IMG/VR virus record: IMGVR_UViG_3300025873_000035
Location: 1 to 27,661 of that record
Strand: one strand, 5' to 3'
Source: a virus
Length of the DNA stretch: 27,661 nucleotides
Below, piece by piece: positions 1-24,454 of this stretch. Each line of letters opens with the position of its first letter. Positions within the stretch are counted from its first letter, which is position 1. A program made the position numbers and the translations under genes. The notes beneath the pieces were generated by a model. It had not been told where the DNA came from. It did not search any database and was given only the letters and a program-made list of their open reading frames with translations.

Positions 1-39
1 CAGAATTATAATGCAGGCAAATCAAAACATAAGAACTAA
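1..39 (+). CDS. C-terminal tail of an upstream gene (partial)
   Basis: Frame 1 is open from the window edge and encodes about 12 residues ending GKSKHKN before a TAA at 37-39. That TAA overlaps the ATG of the next gene as TAATG, the same coupling seen at five other junctions here, which is the main reason to believe it is a real gene end. Nothing can be said about function. Confidence 0.5.
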   Translation, partial: QNYNAGKSKHKN

Positions 40-398
40 TGAGAGGTAATATATTTATATGCTTAAACGAGCAGACGTACAACTCGGAGATTCCCGACAT
101 ACTATCGAGATGCAGACGAGTAGAGTTTAGCAAAGATGGCAGTTCATCAAAGATACTGCCCACTACTTTTGCTCAGATGGGCGAGGATAACACAACAGAT
201 TTTGGGAAAGTGCAGTCTTTGTCTGTTGATGGTGTTAACTTCTACATACTACAGTTTAATGCGAGTTGGTTGAACGGCGAGGTATCTTATTTAAAAGATT
301 TGGGCAAGGGATTAAGTTACCCTAACAACGCATTACTTCTTAATGCAGAGGCAAGGAAATTATTGGAAGAGAATATATCTAAAGAATATGAGGGGTAG
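39..398 (+). CDS. Unknown protein, first copy of a tandem paralogous pair
   Basis: A 119-aa soluble protein of unknown function. It starts MRGNIFICLNEQTY and carries a C-terminal block with SWL, then LGKGLSYPNN and an EA pair. The next gene has the same signature at both ends, so the two are diverged duplicates. No membrane segment or catalytic motif is visible. Its ATG overlaps the stop of the upstream gene, and its own end overlaps the next ATG by 11 bases, so the pair is probably translated together. It sits just ahead of the lysis genes, which is the only hint to its role. I do not recognise the family. Confidence 0.8.
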   Translation: MRGNIFICLNEQTYNSEIPDILSRCRRVEFSKDGSSSKILPTTFAQMGEDNTTDFGKVQSLSVDGVNFYILQFNASWLNGEVSYLKDLGKGLSYPNNALLLNAEARKLLEENISKEYEG

Positions 399-2669: not shown

Positions 2670-3232
2670 TGAAATCTCCATTTAATTTTATTGTACGCCC
2701 TCTAAAGGGTAAGAGATACAATAACACGAAGACTATCGGAGGGATGGAGTTCGTTGTTAGCACTTCTGAGGAAGACCATAAGTTTTCCAATCGTGAGGCT
2801 GTTGTTGTAGAGACTCCTATAGATTACAAGGGCTCTATATGTGCAGGGGATATTCTTCTTGTTCATCATAATGTCTTTAAGTTTTATAACGATATAAAGG
2901 GTAATCGCAAAAGTGGAAAGAGCTACTTTAAAGATGACCTATTCTTTGTTGATAGCGAGCAGTTCTATCTATATAAAAAAGAAGGAAAGTGGTATAGCCA
3001 CGATAGATATTGTTTTATAAAGCCTATAGATAAGCTTGACGGTTTCTTAGAGAAGTCTTGTAAGTACGAACCTTTGATGGGAGATATGGTGTATCCAAAT
3101 GAGTATTTAAAGTCTAAAGGAATTAACGAAGGCGATAGAGTGTACTTTACTCCTAATAGCGAGTATGAGTTTACGGTAGAAGACAAGACTTTATATAGAG
3201 TGTTTGACCACCAAGTAACTATGAAAGCTTAA
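2669..3232 (+). CDS. GroES-like co-chaperonin (two-lobed)
   Basis: A 187-aa protein started at the ATG overlapping the previous stop; an ATG at 2657 would lie inside the preceding gene. Residues 7-70 follow a GroES course: FIVRPLKGKRY at the start, a TIGG turn, EAVVVETP for the GEV-like strand, and CAGDILLVHH for the GD-V strand. Residues 138-187 repeat the second half (GINEGDRVYFTPN, then TLYRVFDHQVTMK), with a charged insertion between. GroES proteins cap the GroEL folding cage, and phages encode versions such as T4 gp31 to fold their capsid protein. Lying upstream of terminase, portal and capsid genes fits that job. The insertion is not usual for the family. Confidence 0.5.
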   Translation: MKSPFNFIVRPLKGKRYNNTKTIGGMEFVVSTSEEDHKFSNREAVVVETPIDYKGSICAGDILLVHHNVFKFYNDIKGNRKSGKSYFKDDLFFVDSEQFYLYKKEGKWYSHDRYCFIKPIDKLDGFLEKSCKYEPLMGDMVYPNEYLKSKGINEGDRVYFTPNSEYEFTVEDKTLYRVFDHQVTMKA

Positions 3233-3696
3233 TGGTTGGTGTTATAGATGATATAATATTAAATCCTAAGCAGTATGTTAACGATATACTTAACAACCCT
3301 TTTATAGATTTCGCTGATGGCGACTATATCTTTAAAGGAATACAACCTAGGGAAGATGATGCTTTTTCAAAATATGTATTAGACAAGTTTAAAGGATATA
3401 AGATTGCTTTTAATTTTATAAGACAGTCTCCATACAAGCAGTTAGAGCCTAATTATATTCATACAGATGAAATGATGGGGGATGTAACTGTTTTGTTGTA
3501 TCTTAATGAAGAATATCCTAAAGGAGCAGGAACAACTATATACAGCCTAAAGGAAGGGATTAAAGTTGTAGATTATAAGTTTAATAGAATGTGTTACTTT
3601 GACTCTAAAGAATCTCACTCTAGAAACCTTAAAGATAATTTTGGGGAAGGAGACGAGTCTAGGTTAGTCCAAGTAATATTTTTAAAAAAAATATAA
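3232..3696 (+). CDS. 2-oxoglutarate/Fe(II)-dependent oxygenase
   Basis: A 154-aa protein with the prolyl-4-hydroxylase-like double-stranded beta-helix pattern. Fe(II) ligands are seen in YIHTDE (His77, Asp79) and ESHSR (His129), with Arg144 in DESRLVQVIFL as the likely 2-oxoglutarate salt-bridge residue. The strand VTVLLYLNEE follows the HxD as expected, and GAGTTIYS fits the next turn. It would hydroxylate a protein or small-molecule substrate using oxygen and 2-oxoglutarate. It is coupled by TAATG to the genes on both sides, so it is made with the packaging proteins. The substrate is unknown. Phage versions are known in marine viruses. Confidence 0.8.
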   Translation: MVGVIDDIILNPKQYVNDILNNPFIDFADGDYIFKGIQPREDDAFSKYVLDKFKGYKIAFNFIRQSPYKQLEPNYIHTDEMMGDVTVLLYLNEEYPKGAGTTIYSLKEGIKVVDYKFNRMCYFDSKESHSRNLKDNFGEGDESRLVQVIFLKKI

Positions 3697-12097: not shown

Positions 12098-13438
12098 ATG
12101 GCAAAATTTTTAGGTGTACCAAATAGAATGTCAAATGGAGCTTTCACTGAGTTCGCCACCACGGGTGCTGAGTTAGTTGTAAACGGGGACTTCTCATTTG
12201 GGACTGACCAATGGACTGCTACTAATGCTACATTAACAGAATCAGGAGGAGAATTAACTGTAACTGAAACGGGTGGCACGTTATATGGCGAGGCAAAGCA
12301 ATCCGTACCTATAGAAAAAGGTAAGGCTTATGTTGTGACTGTGACTCTTAAGTCCGAGGCTTTAAATGCTGTTGATGTTGAGATAACTTCAGGGTCAAGT
12401 GTTGGGGGTGGTATGTTTGTTGATGGAACAGCTACAACATCTACAGCTTTTGTAACTCAGCAATATAGATTTGCAGCATACACCGATACAGCAGGTATAT
12501 CATTAAGGGCTATAACTACTACTATCGACGAGACAGGGGTGTTTAGCGAAATCTCTATAAAGGAAGCACTTTATAGTATTAGTGATGACGAGTCGGTTGT
12601 TAATGGTGATTTTATCACTGACACGGATTGGACTAAAAATGGTGGAGCTACAATTACAGGAGGTGCAGCCTACATACCTACAGGAGGTGCGTGGGTATCT
12701 CAAGGTATTGGTGCAGAAGTAGGACGAATCTATAACTACACTTTAGTAGTCAAATCAGATGCGGGAGCGGGTGCTTTGGAGATTATTAGCGACCTTGTAG
12801 TTGAACATTATGAAAGCATACCATCCGCTTACACCACCTATACGGGTACTTTTATAGCGGGTGATGGTGATATTAAATTACGAGAAGAGGGTGATGGCGG
12901 CGGAGTTTATGTTGACAGCTTATCAGTAAAAGCTGCAGTATATAACAACTTACAATCTACAGGGGAAAGCTTCCTTACTACAGCTAAGGTTGGAGATGTT
13001 GTATTTAACACCTCTGATAATACTGAGGCGGTTGTAACTGAAGTGGTTGATGATAATACGTTAACGCTATCTAATGAGAACTTATCTTTTGAGAAGAGCG
13101 GTAGTAAATCTTGGACAACATTCGCCGCTAATGGAGACACGAGAGGGAATACTATCTTTAAGATAGACGACTTTATGATGTCAAATTATGATTTATCTAC
13201 TGCCTTCTCTAACACTACTTGGTTTTTCTTTTCAGGAGGAGTGTACGCAAGTAAGCTTGTGTTTACATCTCTAAATATGGCTACTGACTCTGAGTTTGTC
13301 TCAAATGTTATAGAGAGAAACATTGAAGTACTTAATAGTAAGTCTGCAACCGTAACAAGATTAGATATACCTTTAAATGAATTTAGGGATAGTATATATA
13401 ATGAGGTTTTAGCAATATCCACGATAACAACATCTTAA
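12098..13438 (+). CDS. Modular virion surface protein with two carbohydrate-binding-like modules
   Basis: A 446-aa protein starting MAKFLGVPNRMSNGAF. Residues about 24-157 and 164-280 are two jelly-roll modules of the CBM type, opening VVNGDF and closing with EISIKEA or DSLSVKAA strands. Residues 290-335 contain a small beta unit (VGDVVFNTSDN, VVDDNTLTLSNE). The C-terminus carries LDIPLNEFRDSIYNEVLAIS, related to the end of the next gene. The N- and C-terminal parts look like the original small virion protein, with modules added between. It likely sits on the particle surface and may bind glycans. It follows a -7 box and is co-transcribed with its paralogue 12 bases downstream. Confidence 0.7.
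   Translation: MAKFLGVPNRMSNGAFTEFATTGAELVVNGDFSFGTDQWTATNATLTESGGELTVTETGGTLYGEAKQSVPIEKGKAYVVTVTLKSEALNAVDVEITSGSSVGGGMFVDGTATTSTAFVTQQYRFAAYTDTAGISLRAITTTIDETGVFSEISIKEALYSISDDESVVNGDFITDTDWTKNGGATITGGAAYIPTGGAWVSQGIGAEVGRIYNYTLVVKSDAGAGALEIISDLVVEHYESIPSAYTTYTGTFIAGDGDIKLREEGDGGGVYVDSLSVKAAVYNNLQSTGESFLTTAKVGDVVFNTSDNTEAVVTEVVDDNTLTLSNENLSFEKSGSKSWTTFAANGDTRGNTIFKIDDFMMSNYDLSTAFSNTTWFFFSGGVYASKLVFTSLNMATDSEFVSNVIERNIEVLNSKSATVTRLDIPLNEFRDSIYNEVLAISTITTS
12167..12568 (+). other. Jelly-roll module 1 of the 446-aa surface protein
   Basis: Residues 24-157. It opens ELVVNGDFSFGTDQWTA and closes GVFSEISIKEA. The layout (NGDF, a Trp, alternating strands, a final D/E-x-S-I/V strand) is the usual shape of CBM4/9-like or galactose-binding-like folds. 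Boundaries are by eye. Confidence 0.6.
12587..12937 (+). other. Jelly-roll module 2 of the 446-aa surface protein
   Basis: Residues 164-280. It opens ESVVNGDFITDTDWTKNG and closes GVYVDSLSVKAA. It is diverged from module 1 apart from the opening and closing motifs. Confidence 0.6.
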
Positions 13439-13450
13439 GACTAAATAGTA

Positions 13451-14995
13451 ATGGCAAAATTTTTAAAACTTAATAAGGCTTATCAAATAAATCACCTTTT
13501 AGATAACCCTGACTTTGACGAGTATGGTCCTGAAGCGGTTACTAATGGTGATTTTAGCGACGGAATAACGGGATGGTCTCCTGCTGATTCCGGCTCACAT
13601 ATATCTATATCCGACGGTGAACTAAAAGTCACTAACCGTGATAGCACTGCATCAATGGCTACTACTAGTGTAACTATAGTGGATGGTAAGACGTATTCAG
13701 TAACCTATAAAAGCTCTCAAGGAAATTCTTCTAGTGCTATATCTAGTATGGGGTTTGGCTCTACAGCGGGGAATATGAGCCTATCGGGGCAGTCTACAGC
13801 GATAAGTTTTGATAGCAATGGGGTTCACACCCATACTTGGCTAGCCACCTTATCAGGCGTTGTTTATTTTACGTTAAAAATTGATTCGACAACAGAGGAT
13901 GACTATATGCTCTTTGATGATGTTTCTATAAAAGAGTCAGGAGATGTACAGACTGTAGAGAACGGGTGGTTTTCAGGTGTGGTAAATGGAGCTATTTCAG
14001 ATTCATACCCTACTGACCAATGGGACACTTACATTCCGGGCGGTGTTCCGACCACATCGGCGATTGAATCCGAAAAACTTACTATAGATACCGCTTTTAC
14101 TAATAGTGGTGCGGCACTTTCTGTACCAACAGTTAGTGGTGCAGAGTATAGGCTTACTATTGATTCTGTTACGAAAATTAGTGGTAACGACTTAGGTCCT
14201 GCTACAGTAAATATTAATTTGATTGGAAATGTAGACTGTACAGACGGTTCAGCAGACTTCGTATTTACGGCTGTAGGAGACACTTCAACTATATATTTTA
14301 GAGCAGGGAACAATAATTCAGGAAAGGTCACGTATAAAGGAATATCTGTAACGGCTACAAATAAATTTGCTAATGATTGGACAAGAGCAAGTTCGGGAGT
14401 ATCTGAGTCGGGGAATATGTTTGACTTTAATTTCGCCAATAACACTTTAACAATGAGTAGCCCTACCGATTCGGTGTATGTTATGAAAAACACAGGGGCT
14501 GTAACTAGTGGCGAGAACTATGCTGTTAATTTCAATGTAAGGTCAATCAGCGGAACGCCTACAGTGCAAATTTATAATGGCAGCACTTATCTAACTGTTA
14601 TTCCTAAAGAAGGAGATAATAAGTTTCTATTTGATATGGGTGGCTCAGGAGCACAAGACCTTTCTTTTGGAATTAAAAGTGACGACTCGGCAGACTACAT
14701 AATTCTTAATAGCATAGATTTAAGTTTAATTAAGAATCAACCTAAGCTAATAGGTATTGATACTATTACAAGGGTTGATGCTCCCGATACAAATACTGTC
14801 GATTTGCTTTATACGAATACTCCAAGTGGTAGTGATTTTCTCTCTATCACATATGACGGAGAAAGTGCGTCCTCTGTTTTTCAAATGAGAAACTTCTTTC
14901 AAGACAGTATTACTAGACTATCCGCCTTTAGCGACACAAATAAAATCCTTAACATTAATCCTCCTGTGGATATTGAAGATATTATAGCGGGGTAA
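13451..14995 (+). CDS. Modular virion surface protein with three carbohydrate-binding-like modules
   Basis: A 514-aa paralogue of the preceding gene. It starts MAKFLKLNKAYQINHLL, and its first 15 bases are identical to those of the neighbour. Modules lie at about residues 27-163 (opens AVTNGDF, closes FDDVSIKES), 166-302 (opens TVENGWF, closes YKGISVTAT) and 303-428 (weaker start, closes LNSIDLSLIK). The C-terminal 85 residues (ITRVDAPDTNTVDLLY, then FFQDSITRLSAFS) correspond to the end of the neighbour. It probably forms a surface decoration or fibre able to bind polysaccharide on the host. A weaker terminator follows. The ligand is unknown. Confidence 0.7.
   Translation: MAKFLKLNKAYQINHLLDNPDFDEYGPEAVTNGDFSDGITGWSPADSGSHISISDGELKVTNRDSTASMATTSVTIVDGKTYSVTYKSSQGNSSSAISSMGFGSTAGNMSLSGQSTAISFDSNGVHTHTWLATLSGVVYFTLKIDSTTEDDYMLFDDVSIKESGDVQTVENGWFSGVVNGAISDSYPTDQWDTYIPGGVPTTSAIESEKLTIDTAFTNSGAALSVPTVSGAEYRLTIDSVTKISGNDLGPATVNINLIGNVDCTDGSADFVFTAVGDTSTIYFRAGNNNSGKVTYKGISVTATNKFANDWTRASSGVSESGNMFDFNFANNTLTMSSPTDSVYVMKNTGAVTSGENYAVNFNVRSISGTPTVQIYNGSTYLTVIPKEGDNKFLFDMGGSGAQDLSFGIKSDDSADYIILNSIDLSLIKNQPKLIGIDTITRVDAPDTNTVDLLYTNTPSGSDFLSITYDGESASSVFQMRNFFQDSITRLSAFSDTNKILNINPPVDIEDIIAG
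13529..14734 (+). other. Three consecutive jelly-roll modules in the 514-aa surface protein
   Basis: The three modules take up 13529-13939, 13946-14356 and 14357-14734. The first two share the NGDF/NGWF opening and the D-V/I-S-V/I closing strand. The third lacks a clear NGDF (FANDWTRASSGVSESG) but keeps the length and the closing IDLSL strand. Borders are approximate. Confidence 0.5.
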
Positions 14996-15017
14996 TGTGA
15001 TGATATAATATACTACT

Positions 15018-15047
15018 AAAGGGCTCTATGGGGGCTCTTTTTTTTTT
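15018..15047 (+). terminator. Weaker intrinsic terminator after the surface genes
   Basis: Arms AAAGGGCT (15018-15025) and GGCTCTTT (15033-15040) pair with two G-T pairs around a seven-base loop. The second arm runs into a tract of ten T (15038-15047). The stem is modest, but the T tract and gap position fit a terminator. Confidence 0.6.
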
Positions 15048-15050
15048 GCG

Positions 15051-15058
15051 TATATTTG
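15051..15058 (+). promoter_or_regulatory. -7 box (TATATTTG) for the tail block
   Basis: A perfect TAnnTTTG match three bases after the terminator T tract and 15 bases before the ATG at 15074. No clear -33 element is visible. Confidence 0.6.
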
Positions 15059-15073
15059 TAAAAAGATTTTAAA

Positions 15074-16186
15074 ATGATTGATTCAGTTAGAACCACAGTC
15101 CTTGCTGTACTAAACAAGAACAACTACGGATACCTTTCTCCTTCTGATTTCAACCTGTACGCTAAGCAGGCTCAGTTAGAGATATTTGAGAGCTACTTCT
15201 ATGATTATAATAATCAATTAAATCAAGAGAATATACGTAAGTCAGGTACTGATTATGCAGATATATCTAAAGGCATTCTTGAGGCAATAGACTTGTTCTC
15301 TGTAACTAAGACTTTAGAGCAAACGCCATCATTGGTAAATGATTATTTTATGCCATCAGTTGCTACAACAGGCTCAGACTACTACCTTATAAATAAGGTT
15401 TTATGTTTATGTAAAAAGCCTCAGTTATTAAATAACAATGAATTTAAATCGGGTGATTATTGGTACTTAAGTGATTCATCGGTAGCTATTGATAATACAA
15501 CTGAAACTTTGGATTTTACAGCCGCACCTCTAGATACTTATACCGATACTACCTATAGGGTTTTTGAAAATGGTAAACATTATGTGGCAATAATTGATAT
15601 AGAATCTTTATCATCAGGTAAGATAGCTTTTGTCGCTAATGGTGATGCTGCTACCTATAGTGCTGAATATACTACTGCGGGTGTATATACTCACAACTTT
15701 ACAGTTACCACGACAGTTACCGGGGTGTTTGAAGTCTTTGCTAAAGATGCGTCAGCCACTACAGCAGTGATAAACAGTATTGATGTTTATGAAGTTGAGT
15801 TTAGAGATGTAGAGAGAATTAGTCAGGGTAAGATTTCAGCACTTAACATATCACCTCTTACCGCTCCTAGTTGTGAGTTTCCCGCATATACTACTGAAGG
15901 TGTGACTATGACTATACATCCATTGACAATTAACGGCACAGGAGATATAACGTGTCAGTATATACGATACCCTAAAGACCCCGTGTGGACATATAGTTCA
16001 ACTCTCGTTGGGCAAGCCCCATTATTTAATGCATCTGCTGCAGATTATCAAGATTTTGAGTTACCACTAGATAATCAAAATGATTTGGTAGTTAAAATAC
16101 TTCAGTATGCAGGGGTAGAGGTACGTGAGGATATGGTCTATAAGTTTGGAAAAGTAGAAGAGCAAGAAAATAACATAGAACAATAA
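15074..16186 (+). CDS. Head-to-tail adaptor/ring protein carrying an inserted jelly-roll module
   Basis: A 370-aa protein. Residues 1-110 (MIDSVRTTVLAVLNKNNYGY, SDFNLYAKQAQLEIFES, YYLINKVL) and residues 242-370 (FRDVERISQGKISAL, TAPSCEFPAYT, CQYIRYPKDPVWTY, DLVVKILQYAGVEVRED) read as the two halves of one ring/adaptor protein of the crAss-like and marine podovirus type. Residues about 112-241 are a CBM-like module opening LLNNNEF and closing INSIDVYEV, placed between them. The core would attach to the portal ring. The module would project from the neck. It is the first gene after a -7 box and lies two bases before the next gene. Confidence 0.75.
   Translation: MIDSVRTTVLAVLNKNNYGYLSPSDFNLYAKQAQLEIFESYFYDYNNQLNQENIRKSGTDYADISKGILEAIDLFSVTKTLEQTPSLVNDYFMPSVATTGSDYYLINKVLCLCKKPQLLNNNEFKSGDYWYLSDSSVAIDNTTETLDFTAAPLDTYTDTTYRVFENGKHYVAIIDIESLSSGKIAFVANGDAATYSAEYTTAGVYTHNFTVTTTVTGVFEVFAKDASATTAVINSIDVYEVEFRDVERISQGKISALNISPLTAPSCEFPAYTTEGVTMTIHPLTINGTGDITCQYIRYPKDPVWTYSSTLVGQAPLFNASAADYQDFELPLDNQNDLVVKILQYAGVEVREDMVYKFGKVEEQENNIEQ
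15407..15796 (+). other. Inserted jelly-roll module within the ring protein
   Basis: Residues 112-241 of the 370-aa ring protein. The sides are NKVL before and FRDVERISQ after, which read as one continuous core if the module is removed. The insert is Thr/Ser/Ala-rich and beta-stranded, unlike the mixed core around it. Confidence 0.6.
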
Positions 16187-16188
16187 CA

Positions 16189-17112
16189 ATGGCATATATA
16201 TCTCAACACCAATACTACGAAAATAGCGGTAAAACTCCTGAGAATAAAGATTGGGGGTCGTATCAATACGTTAGCTTAAGAGATGTAGTAAATAATTTTA
16301 TGCTAATGTATCAAGGAAACCACTCCCTTGTAAATAACGAGGAGAGGTATAAGGTTCTGTTTCACGCAAAACGTGCAATACAAGAGCTTAACTACGATGC
16401 GTTTAAGGAAATTAAAGCTATTGAGCTAACCCTATCCGATAGCGTAAGATATATATTACCGTCAGATTATGTTAATTGGGTTAGAGTATCAATGTTTGAA
16501 AACGGAGTTCTATATCCGTTAACAGAGAATATTAATCTAACTACTGCTCAGGGTTATCTGCAGGATAATAACTACGACCTTCTATTTGATGAAAATGGTA
16601 GCGTCTTAAAATCAGAATACTCAGAGTTAGATTTTGCTAGAATAAAAGGGACTAAGAAGAGTATATATCTAAATAGCTCTAGCCCTTTTAATGGTGATGA
16701 GGGATACTGCTATAATGGTTCTTGGTACTTTGACTTTCAGATAGGAGCTAGGTATGGTTTAAATACTGAGACAGCTAATTGCAATCCTACATTTAAGATA
16801 AACCCAAAAGCAGGGGTGATAAATTTCGACTCTACTATGTCAGGGAAGTCTGTAATCCTAGAGTATGTCTCTGATGGTATGGAGGGTGGTGATAACTCAC
16901 TTATAACAGTAAATAAATTATTTGAAGACTTTGTATATGCGTACATACAATACGCTATATTAAACAGTAAGCTTGGGGTTCAAGAGTATATAGTCTCTAG
17001 GGCTAAGAAGCAAAAGATAGCGTTGCTACGTAACGCTAAAATCAGAATCAGTAACATACATCCCGGTAGATTGCTTATGAATCTAAGAGGGCAAAGCAAG
17101 TGGATTAAGTAG
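16189..17112 (+). CDS. Ring/adaptor protein of the neck or tail
   Basis: A 307-aa protein starting MAYISQHQYYENSGKTPENK. Blocks such as ERYKVLFHAKRAIQELNYDA, LSDSVRYILPSDYVNWVRVS and LLMNLRGQSKWIK fit ring/adaptor proteins found next to the muzzle gene in crAss-like and related phages, with an overall course like T7 tail tubular protein A. The middle (about residues 140-225) is a beta-rich region ending in VILEYVSDGME. It ends one base before the 1551-aa gene and would join portal/adaptor to muzzle. No inserted jelly-roll module is seen here, unlike its neighbour. Confidence 0.75.
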   Translation: MAYISQHQYYENSGKTPENKDWGSYQYVSLRDVVNNFMLMYQGNHSLVNNEERYKVLFHAKRAIQELNYDAFKEIKAIELTLSDSVRYILPSDYVNWVRVSMFENGVLYPLTENINLTTAQGYLQDNNYDLLFDENGSVLKSEYSELDFARIKGTKKSIYLNSSSPFNGDEGYCYNGSWYFDFQIGARYGLNTETANCNPTFKINPKAGVINFDSTMSGKSVILEYVSDGMEGGDNSLITVNKLFEDFVYAYIQYAILNSKLGVQEYIVSRAKKQKIALLRNAKIRISNIHPGRLLMNLRGQSKWIK

Positions 17113-17113
17113 T

Positions 17114-20100
17114 ATGGGCAATAGTAAAAGAAACTTTGTAGCCGGAAGGATGAATAAGATGACTGATGAGCGTCTTGTTCCTAACGGAGAGTACGTTGAT
17201 GCAATGAATGTTCGTCTTGGCTCTACTGAGGGCTCGGAGGTTGGTTCTGTTGAGTCGTCGAAAGGGAATGATATGTTAACTGCAATCTCTTTAGGCGTAT
17301 ATGGGATTACTCAATATTCTTTGAGTGCTAGTGCTAGGTGTATTGGGGCTTTTGAGGATGGTGCTTGTGAGACTATTTATTGGTTTATACATGATAGCGA
17401 CGCTTCATCTACAGCCACCGGGAAGGCAGACCTGATAGTATCGTATGATACTAAGGTTAAAAGTTCTGAGTATCATATTGTGAGTTTTCAAAATTCTGAA
17501 GACACACTAAATACTACGTTAAACTTCAATCCAAAATATCTTATAACTAATGTTAATAAGGTTGGTGAGTTATTATTTTTTACAGACAACTACAATCCTC
17601 CAAGGAAAATAAATGTAAGTAAAAACTATCCTTACCCAACAGGTATAGATAGCGTAGACGAATTTGACTACAATGATTTACTAGTTGTTGTTGACCCTCC
17701 CGCCCAAGCTCCGTTAGTATCAGCTATTGATAGCAACATTACAGACACCTTCATGGAGGAGAGGTTTATTTGTTTTGGGTATAGATATAGATATGCTGAC
17801 AATGAATACTCAGCTACATCGCAATTTACAAACCCTAGCTTTACCCCTAAACCTTTTAGCTTGTCTACAGAAAGCTATCTGAATGACGGGATGGTTAACA
17901 GTTCGAATACGGCAGATGTTGTTTTTTACACAGGAGGACCACAAGTAAAGGCTATTGACATTCTTTTTAAGGAGTCAGACTCAAGCATAATTAAAGTTAT
18001 TGAGTGTTTAGATAAGGATAGATTAAATTATTCTGATTACACAAGCTACACGTACTCATTTATTAATAGTAAAATATTTACAGTCCTTTCAAGTTCAGAG
18101 ATATTACGCTTGTACGATAATGTCCCTTTGCTTGCAAAGTCTCAGACCTTAATGGGTAACCGTATTATGTATGGAAATTATGTTGACGGATATGACTTAG
18201 CTCGTGATGGGATTGGAACAAGGCTAAATTATTCTATAGACACTACAAATACTAATATTGAACTTAGCGAATTAACTAGTTCTGTAGCATCAAAAACATA
18301 TGCCATTGATTCAGCCGAATCTTCTAATGGTACGGTTATAGTTGATTTAGAGCCTGTTAGCAATAACTTAACAAAAGGTGCTGTAATTTCATTTTCATTT
18401 ACAGTAACCGGAGGTACATTTTCAGGTATTCCCGATGACCCCGAAACAACAACTAGTGGCTTAGAGGTAGGGTTTACTTATAGATTACTTCAGGATTTTG
18501 CTAACGTGTCAGACCTTGTTACTTCTCCTGATTTTCAATCCAAGATAGGGGTTGAAGGTGCAATTGAGGCGGTTGATAGTTCTTGCGACGGAAGTACCTT
18601 TACAGATGTTTTCAACTGTGCCTTACCAAGTTCTCTATCTGACTTTTCGAAGTTTGAGAGCGGGATTACCGCATCTTTGCAGCCCATTACAGCCGTAGTA
18701 TCAGGTAATTCATTATCTATAACTATATTAGCAATGGGCTATACAACCGACATCGCAACTCCTACTGCTGCCAATTCTGTTTATGAGTATTATGATATTA
18801 GCCTAGCTGAATTTTATTTTCAAGAGGTAGGTAGCCCTACTAGCTTACATAGTAATAGAGGTTATGAGGTTGGTATTGTATATATGGATGAGTTTAATAG
18901 AGCAACAACAGCTTTAGTTAGCCCACAAAACACAGTATATATTCCTTGCTCTGCAAGTACTACACAAAACAAAATTAAAGTTAACATACCAACATCACAA
19001 TTAGCTCCTGATTTTGCTAGTAGATATAAGTTTGTAATTAAGCCTGATGGTGAAAACTATGAGACCATATATTCACAGTTATACTTCGTTGACCCTGCTG
19101 ACAACTCAACATACTTCAAGCTAGAAGGAGAGAATATAGCTAAGGTAGAGGAAGGGGATAGATATATAATCAAGAGAGACTCGCAAGGGGCTATGGGTAA
19201 TTGTGCTATAGCAACTGTTTTAGAAAAGAAGTCTCAAGAGAATGATTTCATTTCTCCTGTTGATGGAGATGATAATGTAGTCCCAACTCCTTCGGGGGTA
19301 TATATGAAGATGTTTGCTAATGACTTTTCTACAGTTTTAGGTGATGATGCAACTATATTACCGGGAAGACAACACGCTGAAGAAAACTCAGGAGGGGAGA
19401 TAGTTTACCTGCAATATAAAGGCTTTGGTACTGAGGATGAAAGTGGGAATTTCGACAACTTAGACATACCTTCAGGCTCTATTATTAAGATTGATTTTGA
19501 TTTATATAGAAACGAGCACGGGAGCGGTAATTCTTGCGAGTATAGAAGCTATAAGCTTAAGAGAGAGTTTGTGTCCTCAAATGAATATGCCAATATAATT
19601 GATTGGTGGAATGGAGATAATATAGGTTCTATAATTAACACGGGGACTAAAAGCCCTACGTCAATTAATAATATCTACAACTCCGATTTGGCTATAGATG
19701 AGGGAGATATAGATGCCTTTGAAGATAGCGGTTCTTTAGGCACTAACCACTATAGATGGTATAAAGACGAAACTACCTCTGAGATTAGGTTTTTAATGAG
19801 CGGAACTAAGTCTTGTTCGGGTAGCGGTAGTGATGCTAATATAAGAGCTACCTTCGAAGTATATAGAGCTCAGAATTTAATTGTATTTGAGACTGAACCT
19901 GTAGAGTCTCTACCTGAGATTTGGTATGAAGGTCAGGATTCGTATCCAATTGATACTACCACAGGCTACCACTTAGATGGTGGTAATTTTGCAAATGCTG
20001 AAGACCAAGACCAAACCTCTACTCTTCCTGCGATATTACACTTAAACTTTTCTAACTGCTATACTTTTGGTAATGGGGTTGAAAGTTTTACTATTAGAGA

Positions 20101-21769
20101 TTCAGTTAAAGGTAAGGCAATGAGAATAGGTAATCGTGTTACTACGGTATCTGCTCAAGAAACCAAGGAATCACATAGAAAGACTGACATTACTTATAGC
20201 GGAATATATAATGATGAGACCAACCTTAATAGATTAAATGAATTTAACTTAGGGTTAGCCAACTTTAAATCTCTTGAAGACTCTTTTGGTCCTATCAATA
20301 AAATGTATGCTCGTGAAACCGACATACTTGTCTTGCAAGAAGATAAAATATCCTACGTTCTATCGGGTAAGAATTTATTATCAGATGCGTCAGGAGGTGA
20401 TGTGCTAACGTCAGTGCCTGAGGTTTTAGGAAAGCAGATAGCTCGACTAGAAAATTATGGCATTAGCGATAATACAGAGAGCTTTGCTGCCTACGGTCAT
20501 GACAAGTTCTTTACTGATGCCAAGAGGGGTGCAGTAATACAGCTTAAAGGAGGAGGTCATGCCAATGAGTCTCTAACAGTAATATCCGATATGGGTATGC
20601 GTAGTTGGTTTAGAGATTTGTTTACTGAAAGTTTTGACACGCAAAAGCTAGGGGCTTATGACCCGTACATGAATGAGTATGTTCTATCTAATAACGATAT
20701 AAGTTTACCTTCAGAAGATGAGTGTATCCCTTGTGGTCAGAAGCAGTCTTTTGTCTTAAATGACGATGACAGCCTTTCTTACTGCATAGATATGCCTACA
20801 ACCCTAGGTTTAGTGGACTTTGCCTTCCAAGTCCCTATTGCCGCCCCTGTTAATCTAGAGGTTACATGGGATGGAATCGTACAAATTAACGACGAAATGT
20901 CCGGCTTAGGGACGCACTCTTTTGATAAAGATAAGCAGCTCCCGTCTAAGGTTTATGTTACGATTTCTAAAATTGATGGCTTGGACGCTACGTTTGACAT
21001 TACCTCTAATTGTCCTGCAGGAAATGAGCTTACGGTTTTTGATATTGTTTTAACCAATAACGATGATTCGGGAAAAACTCTACACCATAATTGGAGTTAT
21101 GATAGTGATGGGCTTACTACGTACAGCCCCGAACAGATTATCAATTTCGCCGAGAACTCTAGCGACCTTATATTTTCATCTACCTATGAATCAAGTACAG
21201 GAGAGCAAGGAGATGGTAATATTCCCATTAAAGGGAACACGGTAACTATGACCACTAATAAGTGGACCTCTGATGACTATTCGAATAGTGCGGGGGATAG
21301 GTTTATGTACGTATCTACAAGTACATTATACCCAAACACTGCAGAGGGATTAAGTGATTTATTAGATGATATAGCAGGCGGAGGAGTGGGTAGAGGAACA
21401 TTAACCCCTACAGTAGACTACAGTAGGTATCACGCTGAATTTTTATTATATGACGGGGTATACGATTATATATACTTAGTTTGGGATTTACGTACCATTA
21501 ACCCCACCTTACTATGTCATCAGGCGGGGGATGAGAGTAGCGCAAACCTAGAAGAGGTATGCTGTCAATGTGCTTGTGTATCAGCAACCTCTCAATATAT
21601 GGTGTCTAACACAGGTTCGTCTACAGTGTTAGTACTTTATAATAATGGGGTCGATGATACTACATTATTAGGTAATACTAGTCAACTTATATGCTCTACT
21701 ACTAGACCTACTTTTACACCTACTTCTGCTGAAGGGGTTACAATAACTATTAAAGAATGTGATTGCTAA
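17114..21769 (+). CDS. Large tail muzzle/nozzle-like protein
   Basis: A 1551-aa protein starting MGNSKRNFVAGRMNKMTDER, then LVPNGEYVDAMNVRLGSTEG, a start I know from the very large tail-tip proteins following the ring protein in crAss-like and marine Bacteroidota phages. Residues 130-390 have beta-propeller-like strands (VGELLFFTDNYNPPRKINVS) as in T7 gp12-type nozzles. Residues about 396-578 look like an added beta domain. A conserved late part includes NKMYARETDILVLQEDKISY and VLGKQIARLENYGIS. Cysteine pairs occur near 1205 (ECIPCG) and 1482 (VCCQCAC), after which a last beta domain follows. It would close the tail channel and let DNA out. Its stop overlaps the next ATG. Confidence 0.8.
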   Translation: MGNSKRNFVAGRMNKMTDERLVPNGEYVDAMNVRLGSTEGSEVGSVESSKGNDMLTAISLGVYGITQYSLSASARCIGAFEDGACETIYWFIHDSDASSTATGKADLIVSYDTKVKSSEYHIVSFQNSEDTLNTTLNFNPKYLITNVNKVGELLFFTDNYNPPRKINVSKNYPYPTGIDSVDEFDYNDLLVVVDPPAQAPLVSAIDSNITDTFMEERFICFGYRYRYADNEYSATSQFTNPSFTPKPFSLSTESYLNDGMVNSSNTADVVFYTGGPQVKAIDILFKESDSSIIKVIECLDKDRLNYSDYTSYTYSFINSKIFTVLSSSEILRLYDNVPLLAKSQTLMGNRIMYGNYVDGYDLARDGIGTRLNYSIDTTNTNIELSELTSSVASKTYAIDSAESSNGTVIVDLEPVSNNLTKGAVISFSFTVTGGTFSGIPDDPETTTSGLEVGFTYRLLQDFANVSDLVTSPDFQSKIGVEGAIEAVDSSCDGSTFTDVFNCALPSSLSDFSKFESGITASLQPITAVVSGNSLSITILAMGYTTDIATPTAANSVYEYYDISLAEFYFQEVGSPTSLHSNRGYEVGIVYMDEFNRATTALVSPQNTVYIPCSASTTQNKIKVNIPTSQLAPDFASRYKFVIKPDGENYETIYSQLYFVDPADNSTYFKLEGENIAKVEEGDRYIIKRDSQGAMGNCAIATVLEKKSQENDFISPVDGDDNVVPTPSGVYMKMFANDFSTVLGDDATILPGRQHAEENSGGEIVYLQYKGFGTEDESGNFDNLDIPSGSIIKIDFDLYRNEHGSGNSCEYRSYKLKREFVSSNEYANIIDWWNGDNIGSIINTGTKSPTSINNIYNSDLAIDEGDIDAFEDSGSLGTNHYRWYKDETTSEIRFLMSGTKSCSGSGSDANIRATFEVYRAQNLIVFETEPVESLPEIWYEGQDSYPIDTTTGYHLDGGNFANAEDQDQTSTLPAILHLNFSNCYTFGNGVESFTIRDSVKGKAMRIGNRVTTVSAQETKESHRKTDITYSGIYNDETNLNRLNEFNLGLANFKSLEDSFGPINKMYARETDILVLQEDKISYVLSGKNLLSDASGGDVLTSVPEVLGKQIARLENYGISDNTESFAAYGHDKFFTDAKRGAVIQLKGGGHANESLTVISDMGMRSWFRDLFTESFDTQKLGAYDPYMNEYVLSNNDISLPSEDECIPCGQKQSFVLNDDDSLSYCIDMPTTLGLVDFAFQVPIAAPVNLEVTWDGIVQINDEMSGLGTHSFDKDKQLPSKVYVTISKIDGLDATFDITSNCPAGNELTVFDIVLTNNDDSGKTLHHNWSYDSDGLTTYSPEQIINFAENSSDLIFSSTYESSTGEQGDGNIPIKGNTVTMTTNKWTSDDYSNSAGDRFMYVSTSTLYPNTAEGLSDLLDDIAGGGVGRGTLTPTVDYSRYHAEFLLYDGVYDYIYLVWDLRTINPTLLCHQAGDESSANLEEVCCQCACVSATSQYMVSNTGSSTVLVLYNNGVDDTTLLGNTSQLICSTTRPTFTPTSAEGVTITIKECDC

Positions 21770-23193
21770 TGGGGGAATTTGGAGAATATTATTTAAACGG
21801 AATAAACCTAGAGAGCTCTACGGCGGTATACACTAGCGATGTTATGACTACCTTAGCCCCTACGGGTTACTACTCTGATGGAGAAGTTACTAGATTTCAG
21901 AGTTCGGGCGGTCTAGGCGTGGAATTACTTACTAACGGAGAGCTTGCCCCTCCGGGGACAGGGTGGACCACTGTTGACGTAGGCGTTTCGGGGTTTGCTT
22001 TTGGGTTTTTGCTTGTAACGACTCTTAATGCTACAACTACTAATTTAGCTCGTGTTAAGCAAACAAGCTCGTCAATTACAGAGCCCTTAAAAACGTATGT
22101 GTTGGAGTATCAGATTTCAGCTATAGGGGGAACACCTACATTTCAATACCACAATGGATATGAGTTTGTCTCAGGACCTTCTACGGTTGACACTCATACT
22201 ATTGAGTATACGAGGCTTGGAGACTCTGATGAGTTTAAAATAAATATACAAGGCTTGAGTAATACCGATACTATGCGTTTTACTGAGATGTCTTTAAAAG
22301 AAAAAGAGCCTGATGGGTTAAAGCCTATTGTAGATTGCCCTCTATGCTCAACTGTTTCGTGTACTACGCAAGTTTCAATATCCTCATTATATAGTGGTAG
22401 GTATCTATTAGAGACAACTTTTGGGTCGGCTGTAGGTGCTATTAAGGTCACCGTAACAGGAGTGTCCAATAGACCTTTAGGTATGTATTTAGAGCACAGT
22501 GATACGGGAACTAAATACATGAGCTTTTCAACAACCGGAGTCCCCGGAGCTGCTTACCCCGATATAATTGAAGCTTCAATCCCTGCCTCATTATCGTATT
22601 TTTATTCTACAGGTGGGGCAGATGACTGTTCTAATTGGAATGATGTTTTAATGGATGGTGGACAGGTTACTTATGATATGTATTCATACAATCCTACAAC
22701 TGATGAGTTTGAATTTACAGGTGATACTGAAAGTAGTGGGGTGATAAACAGGATACCGACTGCACTTCTTGAATATACTGCAGGAAGCCTTATCCAATAT
22801 ATCCCTAAAGCAGATGTTGCTGATATCACTTTAATTGGTCAGTTTGATTTTCCGTGTGGGGCAAGTTCTTTATCTCAGTCACCTACTATTAATATTCAGT
22901 GTCCTGAAGTATTACCTACAATTAATCAGATTTCTTTGCGATTCGCCACAAGCGTCTTAGCCTGTGAATCATCAAGTTTAACTCAAGTTGAGTATCACGG
23001 GGTCGTTAGAGGAACTTCGGGTGTCGAAATAGCGGTAAGAGATTTTATGTTCCAAGACACTAACGCTGAAGATGTATTAGTTGACGGATGGTATAAAACA
23101 TACGGCACAAAGCTAGAAGGAGTTGATGAAACTCACGGGGTATTCGAGATTGCCAACGGAGTGGTTAAAACGATTCTAGATTGTGTCCCTTAA
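21769..23193 (+). CDS. Tail protein with inserted jelly-roll module
   Basis: A 474-aa beta-rich protein. ATG 21769 is chosen over 21763 because it overlaps the preceding stop as TAATG and gives the natural start MGEFGEYYLNGINLESSTAV. Residues 48-182 form a CBM-like module (opens ELLTNGEL, closes FTEMSLKEKE). The core resumes with GLKPIVDCPLCSTVSC. The rest is a series of beta segments with scattered cysteines (DDCSNW, DFPCGAS, INIQCPEV). It probably attaches to the muzzle and may serve as a tail-tip or receptor-contact protein. The partner and ligand are unknown. Confidence 0.7.
   Translation: MGEFGEYYLNGINLESSTAVYTSDVMTTLAPTGYYSDGEVTRFQSSGGLGVELLTNGELAPPGTGWTTVDVGVSGFAFGFLLVTTLNATTTNLARVKQTSSSITEPLKTYVLEYQISAIGGTPTFQYHNGYEFVSGPSTVDTHTIEYTRLGDSDEFKINIQGLSNTDTMRFTEMSLKEKEPDGLKPIVDCPLCSTVSCTTQVSISSLYSGRYLLETTFGSAVGAIKVTVTGVSNRPLGMYLEHSDTGTKYMSFSTTGVPGAAYPDIIEASIPASLSYFYSTGGADDCSNWNDVLMDGGQVTYDMYSYNPTTDEFEFTGDTESSGVINRIPTALLEYTAGSLIQYIPKADVADITLIGQFDFPCGASSLSQSPTINIQCPEVLPTINQISLRFATSVLACESSSLTQVEYHGVVRGTSGVEIAVRDFMFQDTNAEDVLVDGWYKTYGTKLEGVDETHGVFEIANGVVKTILDCVP
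21910..22314 (+). other. Inserted jelly-roll module within the 474-aa tail protein
   Basis: Residues 48-182. The core before ends GEVTRFQSSG and the core after starts GLKPIVDCPLC. The insert has the NGEL opening, TGW, a QYHNGYEF strand and a final TEMSLKEKE, as in the other modules. Confidence 0.55.
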
Positions 23194-23211
23194 TAATATT
23201 AATATATCTAA

Positions 23212-24027
23212 ATGGCGAACTATACATTAACATACAGCGAAAGAGCTAAAGGATTTCCATCTTTCTATAGCTACTATCCCGAATTTATAGTAGGGATGAA
23301 CAACTACCTATACAGTTTTAGTGGCGGGCAGTTATATAGGCACAACACAAATGATACTCATAATGAGTATTACGGAGCGACGACAAGCTCTATGATAAAG
23401 ACTGTTATAAATGAGTCCCCTTTAGATAATAAGCTCTTTAAAACGCTTAATTTAGAGGCAACAGATGCTTGGGATGTGTCCTTGCTTACAGATGTAGGCT
23501 CACAAACAAGTACTATTACTAGCACTTCATTTGTAAAAAAAGAAGGGGATTGGTTTTCCTATGTTCGTAATGATGGTGTAGACGCATCGGGAAGTAATTT
23601 AACAGAGTCTGACTATAAGTCTAGGGCTACAGGAGGTATCGGAGAAGCTTTAGCTGTTAGCGGAGGTCCTACATATTCTATAGAGTTTAAAATTACTGTT
23701 GATTTAAGTAGCAAAGTTTGTGTAGGTGACTTTATATATGCCGCAACCGAAGGCGACACTGAAGCTAGATATGTAGGTCAGATTCTAACTATTACTCCTC
23801 AGTACGAAGCTGTTCCACATTCAGTTACACTTACTGTTGATTCCTCTGTTGGCTCAGGAGTAGCTCCTTTGGTAGATGATTTTATTTTATACGCTAAAAA
23901 TACTACCGCTGAATCAATGGGAGTCTTAGGTCATTATGTTGAGGTTACATTAACCCTGCCTACCTCAGTAACCTCTTCTAGCGAGTTGTTCGCTATAGAG
24001 TCTGAGGTTATGAAAAGCTATCCTTAA
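23212..24027 (+). CDS. Virion structural protein, tail-associated
   Basis: A 271-aa protein starting MANYTLTYSERAKGFPSFYS. Conserved-looking blocks YPEFIVGMNNYLYSFSGGQL, ESPLDNKLFKTLNLE and a beta unit with VCVGDFIYAAT and YVGQILTITPQ are visible. I recall this combination from unassigned virion proteins following the muzzle gene in Bacteroidota phages. It reads as mostly beta with no catalytic motif. It ends 22 bases before a separate gene with its own promoter-like box, so it probably closes the tail block. A tail hub or plug role is possible. Confidence 0.7.
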   Translation: MANYTLTYSERAKGFPSFYSYYPEFIVGMNNYLYSFSGGQLYRHNTNDTHNEYYGATTSSMIKTVINESPLDNKLFKTLNLEATDAWDVSLLTDVGSQTSTITSTSFVKKEGDWFSYVRNDGVDASGSNLTESDYKSRATGGIGEALAVSGGPTYSIEFKITVDLSSKVCVGDFIYAATEGDTEARYVGQILTITPQYEAVPHSVTLTVDSSVGSGVAPLVDDFILYAKNTTAESMGVLGHYVEVTLTLPTSVTSSSELFAIESEVMKSYP

Positions 24028-24049: not shown

Positions 24050-24454
24050 ATGAAATTTACTATAAAACCACTACAATACGAAGACTACGACCTCATTCTT
24101 ACAGGATGGTGGAAGGCTTGGGGTTGGGAAGCTCCTAATAGAGATTTCCTCCCTCAAGATGGTAAGGGTGGTATTATGGTGTGGGATGGAGATACGCCTG
24201 TATGTGCAGGGTTTTTATATAGTACCAACTCAAAGGTAGCGTGGGTAGATTGGATTATATCTAACAAGGAGTATAGAGAATTACGAAAAGAAGCACTTAT
24301 GGTTTTAATAGAATCGTTAACATCTATTGCAAAGAACTTAGACAATAAGTTTGCTTATGCCTTAATAAAGCATAATGGTCTTATAAATGTATACGAGAAA
24401 CAAGGGTACACTCAGGGTGATTCATATAATAAAGAAATGATTAAAGCATTGTAA
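24050..24454 (+). CDS. GNAT-family N-acyltransferase
   Basis: A 134-aa protein with the single-domain GNAT course. IKPLQYEDYDLILTGWWKAW forms the first strand and helix, GGIMVWDGDTPVCAGFLY the central strands, KVAWVDWIISNKEYR the acetyl-CoA-side strand, a helix follows, and YEKQGYTQGD is the usual late Tyr motif. The classical Q/R-x-x-G-x-G/A pyrophosphate loop is not plain; LRKEA takes its place. It would transfer an acyl group from a CoA donor to an unknown amine. It sits among virion genes under its own -7 box and precedes internal virion genes, so a virion protein or the host surface could be its target. Confidence 0.75.
   Translation: MKFTIKPLQYEDYDLILTGWWKAWGWEAPNRDFLPQDGKGGIMVWDGDTPVCAGFLYSTNSKVAWVDWIISNKEYRELRKEALMVLIESLTSIAKNLDNKFAYALIKHNGLINVYEKQGYTQGDSYNKEMIKAL

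Follow-up and report, generated by a model that had tools for sequence, protein, structure and literature searches.

Jelly-roll modules of a predicted carbohydrate-binding module (CBM) type have probably been inserted, one to three per protein, at permissive sites in the virion proteins of a crassvirus-like podovirus, where they would constitute outward-facing accessory domains with a putative glycan-binding role. The DNA analysed here (the window) is the whole of the 27,661-base IMG/VR virus contig IMGVR_UViG_3300025873_000035. Its genes form a podovirus head-tail cluster, ordered as terminase, portal (phrog_6547), a 366-aa protein, an MCP-type protein (phrog_13704) and proteins of 250, 446, 514, 370 (phrog_14543), 307 (phrog_13977), 1551 (phrog_14478), 476 and 271 aa, the last of which contains the crassvirus muzzle C-terminal domain crAss_MUZ_C (52.6 bits; cut-off 27). 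By homology, the phage is a crAss-related podovirus; NCBI places Elemovirus, a related genus, in no order. The portal is 77% identical to that of an uncultured podovirus from Manatee Spring, the nearest named genome, followed by phages of Maribacter, Flavobacterium, Cellulophaga and Tenacibaculum, and the host is therefore probably a member of the Bacteroidota. A twin contig, IMGVR_UViG_3300002760_000212 (32,861 bases), is identical to the window at all 1,181 overlapping bases compared, agrees with it in nearly all shared proteins and reaches 7.8 kb further upstream.

Modules and carrier proteins

Pattern scans of IMG/VR yielded more than 100 contigs with an NGDF...W module, and a profile was constructed from approximately 230 modules at 124 other loci, none of them belonging to the window or the twin contig. 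When applied to the ORFs of the window, this outside profile gave exactly seven matches (E 1e-18 to 2e-5; Table 1), the next best hit having an E value of 0.24, and for each of the seven modules none of 1000 shuffles reached the real score. A profile made from the seven window modules alone, with one left out at a time, clearly recovered A1, B1, C1 and D1 (0/1000 shuffles), while B3 (15/1000) and A2 (28/1000) were marginal and B2 (201/1000) was unsupported; this test was too weak for A2, B2 and B3 and was replaced by the outside profile. Identity to A1 ranges from 16 to 35%, and on the profile evidence the modules constitute one homologous family.

Table 1. Module-bearing proteins and their modules in the window (E values of the jelly-roll modules are those of the outside profile)
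Feature	Position	Strand	Remarks
720-aa LamG protein, last codons	1..38	+	remainder upstream, L163:5696-7858; carries modules E1 and E2
446-aa protein	12098..13438	+	in the head-protein slot that follows the MCP and 250-aa genes; holds jelly-roll modules A1 and A2 and one VGD module
Module A1, aa 24-158	12167..12571	+	E 3e-13; AF2 model
Module A2, aa 164-281	12587..12940	+	E 1e-18; closest relative is E1 in the 720-aa protein of the same phage
VGD module of 446-aa protein, aa 283-327	12944..13078	+	E 1.4e-14 (profile based mainly on ring inserts of relatives)
514-aa protein	13451..14995	+	MAKFL head-slot scaffold (~aa 1-14 and 430-514), interrupted by three modules
Module B1	13526..13939	+	E 3e-16
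Module B2	13943..14356	+	E 3e-6; divergent
Module B3	14357..14728	+	E 2e-5; degenerate opening
370-aa protein	15074..16186	+	putative ring / head-tail adaptor-type protein; phrog_14543; module between YYLINKV and VER segment
Module C1	15413..15805	+	E 1e-11; absent in L025, VGD module in most relatives
476-aa protein	21763..23193	+	flanked by the two muzzle-related genes; shares its first 50 aa and CPLC region with relatives
Module D1	21916..22302	+	E 8e-10; between RFQSSGG and DCPLC, nearly contiguous in relatives

The sequence-only reading had recognised seven related segments in four proteins, and the outside profile matches precisely these. It had also remarked that the third module of the 514-aa protein lacks a clear opening; the opening of B3 is degenerate, yet the module is real, though divergent. 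Two of its details require correction: the carrier it counted as 474 aa, which does bear a module, is 476 aa long from its TTG start, and its four carriers are those of the window, whereas the phage as represented by the window and the twin contig encodes at least nine modules in at least five proteins. The additional carrier, the 720-aa protein, whose modules E1 and E2 are likewise recovered by the outside profile, contains a LamG-type domain (Laminin_G_3, 76.7 bits). This protein also matches phrog_8510 and is likely an adhesin or fibre-type virion protein.

The carriers can be assigned as virion or probable virion proteins by homology and gene position, and on the same grounds this phage has CBM-type domains in two or more distinct virion proteins. 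The earlier reading saw two surface-type and two neck/tail proteins in the four carriers; these are assigned here as two head-slot proteins, a ring protein (neck/tail barrel) and a muzzle-linked protein. Among 125 IMG/VR loci, mostly shorter than 15 kb and one of them from this phage, one module-bearing ORF was counted in 114, two in 10 and three in one. Contig G032, one of 29 longer contigs, has four or five module-bearing frames near both ends, so the number of carriers in this phage is high but perhaps not unique. What sets the phage apart is the spread of the module across head-slot, ring and muzzle-linked proteins.

Insertion sites and module-free relatives

The 370-aa protein is putatively a ring (tail-barrel) protein of the crassvirus type, as judged from phrog_14543 and a weak structural model, with the ring architecture of the crassvirus tail barrel taken from PMC10172136. 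The model is poor (pLDDT 49, and about 30 in the insert); its best match is the tail-barrel chain 7qoj_D of phiCrAss001 (Z 8.5, rmsd 4.9 over 172 residues), after which rank 14 phage neck/tail entries (neck adaptors), and a search with the sequence profile of the 370-aa protein found no solved relative. The ring protein of relative L025 has flanks 72% and 61% identical to those of the window protein, with 7 aa in place of the 134-aa stretch of the window. The same site measures 14 aa in MW202828, 10 aa in Maribacter phage Panino and 26 aa in the Elemovirus protein. Among 106 ring proteins with 87 distinct inserts, the site is shorter than 20 aa in three, 26 aa in one and filled with a VGD-type insert in approximately 101 (92 by profile and nine by eye), the window being the only case with a jelly roll. 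The patterns used to collect these proteins lie in the N-terminal part, outside the insert, so the count does not favour any particular insert, although the 80 loci retained were selected for closeness to the query set.

The VGD domain (VGDxxxNxTxxTxAxVTxVxxxTxLxLS) is small and is found in the ring proteins of loci L005-L024 and L164-L242. Head-slot proteins contain it as well, and inspection by eye places it in a tail-fibre-like gene of 155 aa (L163:5225-5692) upstream of the 720-aa gene, and the VGD domain of L006 matches phrog_28473, a tail fiber family. Comparison of the VGD module with the MCP insertion domain and with the jelly roll revealed no relation (hhalign probability of about 1%).

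In relatives of the 476-aa protein the conserved 50-aa N-terminus runs straight into a Cys-rich CPLC-type region. With its module removed, the window protein scores 57.9 bits against the profile of these relatives, the highest score among shuffles being 9.0. The 514-aa protein shows a comparable arrangement on a larger scale. Its first 14 and last 85 residues, when joined, match the ~100-aa MEKFL proteins of relatives (39 bits; 0/1000 shuffles), which occupy the same gene place and are free of modules; by this homology the 514-aa protein is a head-slot protein of ~100 aa with three modules inside it. The 446-aa protein shares its start and gene place with the MEKFL-type proteins, and a relation of its scaffold tail to this family was not demonstrable by sequence. 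The head-slot genes are absent from two relatives (L001 and L003), and profile searches with the MEKFL family and with the 250-aa family matched no solved structure. Among close relatives of the 446-, 514- and 476-aa proteins, only those of the twin contig bear modules.

As relatives encode the same proteins without modules, the homology evidence argues that the modules were inserted and are not an old inheritance. At least two of the insertions, C1 in the ring protein and D1 in the 476-aa protein, are clean and lineage-specific by these comparisons. A ring site that is empty, holds one domain or holds an unrelated domain between similar flanks provides clean before-and-after pairs in essential virion proteins. 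With such pairs, the idea that neck and head proteins offer loops as general docking places for adhesin domains becomes testable. A more tentative extension, which we regard as possible but would not lean on, is that the ring, MAKFL head-slot and possibly the muzzle-linked sites are fixed, standard sockets that accept nothing, a VGD domain, a jelly roll or stacks of domains from a shared pool. If so, a neck ring that is essential for assembly would have become an exchangeable carrier of adhesins.

The 476-aa gene is situated within what seems to be a split muzzle-type protein (window 17114-24027), between its 1551-aa and 271-aa parts; the Elemovirus muzzle homologue is a single protein of 1493 aa.

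Predicted fold, putative function and precedents

For the fold, 77 modules were aligned and A1 was modelled with AF2, giving a model of ten strands (pLDDT 77, pTM 0.73). Structurally it is closest to the CBM-like domains at the C-terminus of Cry1 proteins (Z 15.9), a match of fold only. It further aligns with CBM16 (Z 14.3, rmsd 2.4 over 125 residues), the hyaluronan-binding module 4d0q (Z 14.2), CBM61 (Z 13.8), CBM4 (Z 13.4 over 130 residues) and a porphyran-binding CBM (Z 13.4), as well as with domains of phage tailspikes. The model is a beta-sandwich alignable over most of its length with the CBM4/16/22/35/61 group, and the module fold is accordingly predicted, from A1, to be a jelly roll of the CBM4/CBM16 type. 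The earlier proposal that the modules are of CBM or galactose-binding type, together with the comparison to CBM4/9 folds that it called for, is borne out at the level of one profile-defined family and the A1 model.

Family databases capture these modules unevenly. The Pfam search of the window returned no CBM_4_9 (PF02018) match, A1 reaching 25.5 bits against a cut-off of 25.9 and the other six window modules being unlisted, and a single sequence among the 77 aligned modules matches this family. By contrast, phrog_30593, for which PHROGs gives no function, matches 70 of the 77, with A1 itself giving no match to it at 1e-3, and 11 of the 77 match a tail-fibre family. Since most of the collected jelly-roll modules match phrog_30593, this abundant phage module family probably has a CBM-type fold, to judge from the model. 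The family was thus already clustered in PHROGs, and what is added here is the fold assignment, a prediction for an abundant group of phage modules that Pfam hardly detects and for which PHROGs lists no function.

Carbohydrate binding by the modules is putative and is proposed by analogy. The modules may face outward on head, tail-barrel and tail-tip-linked proteins, where their high copy number could provide many weak glycan contacts with the host capsule, exopolysaccharide or particles. Contacts of this kind may keep the phage near the cell ahead of the true receptor-binding step. The scaffold of each carrier would build the particle, and the modules would be exchangeable add-ons from a pool common to many phages. 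If the modules do bind sugars, the whole particle, head and tail, would be sticky, a property relevant to the way in which phages locate polysaccharide-coated hosts.

The alternative with the best standing, which is nevertheless unlikely in our estimation, is that the modules do not bind sugar but act as structural spacers, stabilise the particle or mediate protein-protein contacts, a compact beta-sandwich simply being tolerated at these sites. The ring site speaks for it: the unrelated VGD domain fills the site in most of the ring proteins, so that the site may want only some compact domain, and this keeps a non-sugar structural role alive. The residues conserved across the 77-module alignment (N, G, D, F and W near the module start) point the same way, as the NGDF...W motif is likely a fold signature and not a binding site, and the A1-type fold is also found in proteins that do not bind sugars, including ephrin receptors and meprin MAM domains. 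Against this, most of the close structural matches of A1 are carbohydrate-binding modules, some of the aligned modules match a tail-fibre family, the 720-aa carrier also has a LamG domain, and comparable modules of the lactococcal 936 phages bind host cells. An accessory glycan-binding role is therefore preferred.

The 936 siphophages represent the closest precedent. They carry CBMs in Dit, major tail and neck proteins, for which cell binding was measured, and phage MP1 has three CBM-type decorations (PMC6669499). As in the present phage, their CBM-type domains extend from neck to tail tip (evolved Dit, the MTP TpeX and the neck passage structure) and include an internal insertion, in their case in Dit (PMC6669499); virions studded with CBM-type domains are consequently not new in kind. 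The present phage differs from them in being a crassvirus-related podovirus in which the carriers are head-slot, ring, muzzle-linked and LamG proteins, in having at least nine modules of one family, three of them inside one ~100-aa scaffold, and in the use of the ring site by a second, unrelated module (VGD). Binding to host cells is established for the modules of the 936 phages, whereas here it is putative and drawn by analogy. The Ig-like domains that some phages carry on head and tail proteins (Fraser et al. 2006, cited in PMC13320782) are, in the account given in PMC13320782, likewise promiscuous small beta-domains on otherwise unrelated virion proteins; set against that account, the modules here have a predicted jelly-roll CBM-type fold and are internal insertions. 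The shuffling described for neck passage, fibre and lysin proteins (PMC10684548) similarly involves exchange of domains on a conserved scaffold and carbohydrate-binding domains in neck proteins, while the present case concerns insertion within a protein, at one site that is empty, VGD-filled or CBM-filled. Relative to the open-access papers searched, the novelty lies in ring and head-slot proteins as carriers, in their crassvirus-like setting, in the three-state site and in the fold of an unnamed abundant module.

Spread of the modules and neighbouring genes

Module A2 (446-aa protein) and module E1 (720-aa protein) are reciprocal best matches (48% identity over 115 aa, 95 bits), their best outside matches scoring 58 and 55 bits. 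They form a clade with support of 100/99 and share 70% identity over 122 nt, so the simplest reading of these sequences is copying within the genome that involved a head-slot gene and a probable adhesin gene. The sequence-only reading had envisaged a domain that moves or is copied between the structural genes of one phage and had called for a tree of modules. This holds for the A2/E1 pair, which groups within the genome; seven of the nine modules are matched better by modules of other phages than by any other module of this phage, and C1 groups with the module of another contig with support of 100/96. The remaining spread probably draws in part on a wide pool of phages.

A single acquisition followed by multiplication inside the genome would require all nine modules to descend from one ancestor; A2 and E1 are one clear pair of this kind. 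A tree with all nine in a single clade is 47.7 log units worse, though not rejected at 0.05 (AU p = 0.077). With some 121 aligned columns and long branches, the tree is weak outside the A2/E1 and C1 groupings and cannot firmly exclude a single origin. The p values of stricter nearest-neighbour and one-clade comparisons (0.0235 and 0.01) were withdrawn, as contig L120, counted there as another phage and containing E1 and E2, is the upstream part of the same phage. The position of C1 and the better matches elsewhere of most modules make this scenario improbable, and flanking DNA repeats of 22 bases or more, which might have pointed to a copying mechanism, were not found in the module region of the window. 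The G+C content of the modules (0.36-0.44, compared with 0.38 for the window) is not decisive. Old vertical inheritance of the modules as ancient fixed parts of their carriers, the outcome that the earlier reading had set against spread, could account for their strong divergence from each other and is hardly credible for the ring and 476-aa proteins short of precise parallel losses, given module-free ring proteins in L025, L001, L002 and L003, module-free members of the 476-aa family in L001, L012, L018, L019 and L021, and 12 related records without any module, among them a complete genome of 60,850 bases with a portal 77% identical. Insertion, in one case by copying within the genome and probably in part from other phages, is the history most consistent with these comparisons.

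Several other genes of the phage were observed around the module carriers. Directly after the last codons of the 720-aa gene, two adjacent paralogous ORFs (MRGNIFICLNEQTY.. and MRGSIFFCLNTQTY..; window 39-398 and 343-750) gave no Pfam match. A 154-aa protein beside the packaging genes (window 3232-3696) shows a sub-threshold match to 2OG-Fe(II) oxygenases (18.6 bits; cut-off 27). Upstream, the phage encodes its own GroEL-type protein (L163:1832-3439) with a PhoH-like ORF after it, and a GroEL-type protein is also annotated in the Manatee Spring, Panino and Elemovirus genomes. Within the tail cluster a GNAT-like gene is located at window 24050-24454; it gave no Pfam match, and MW202828 has a gene at this position that is annotated as an N-terminal acetyltransferase subunit.
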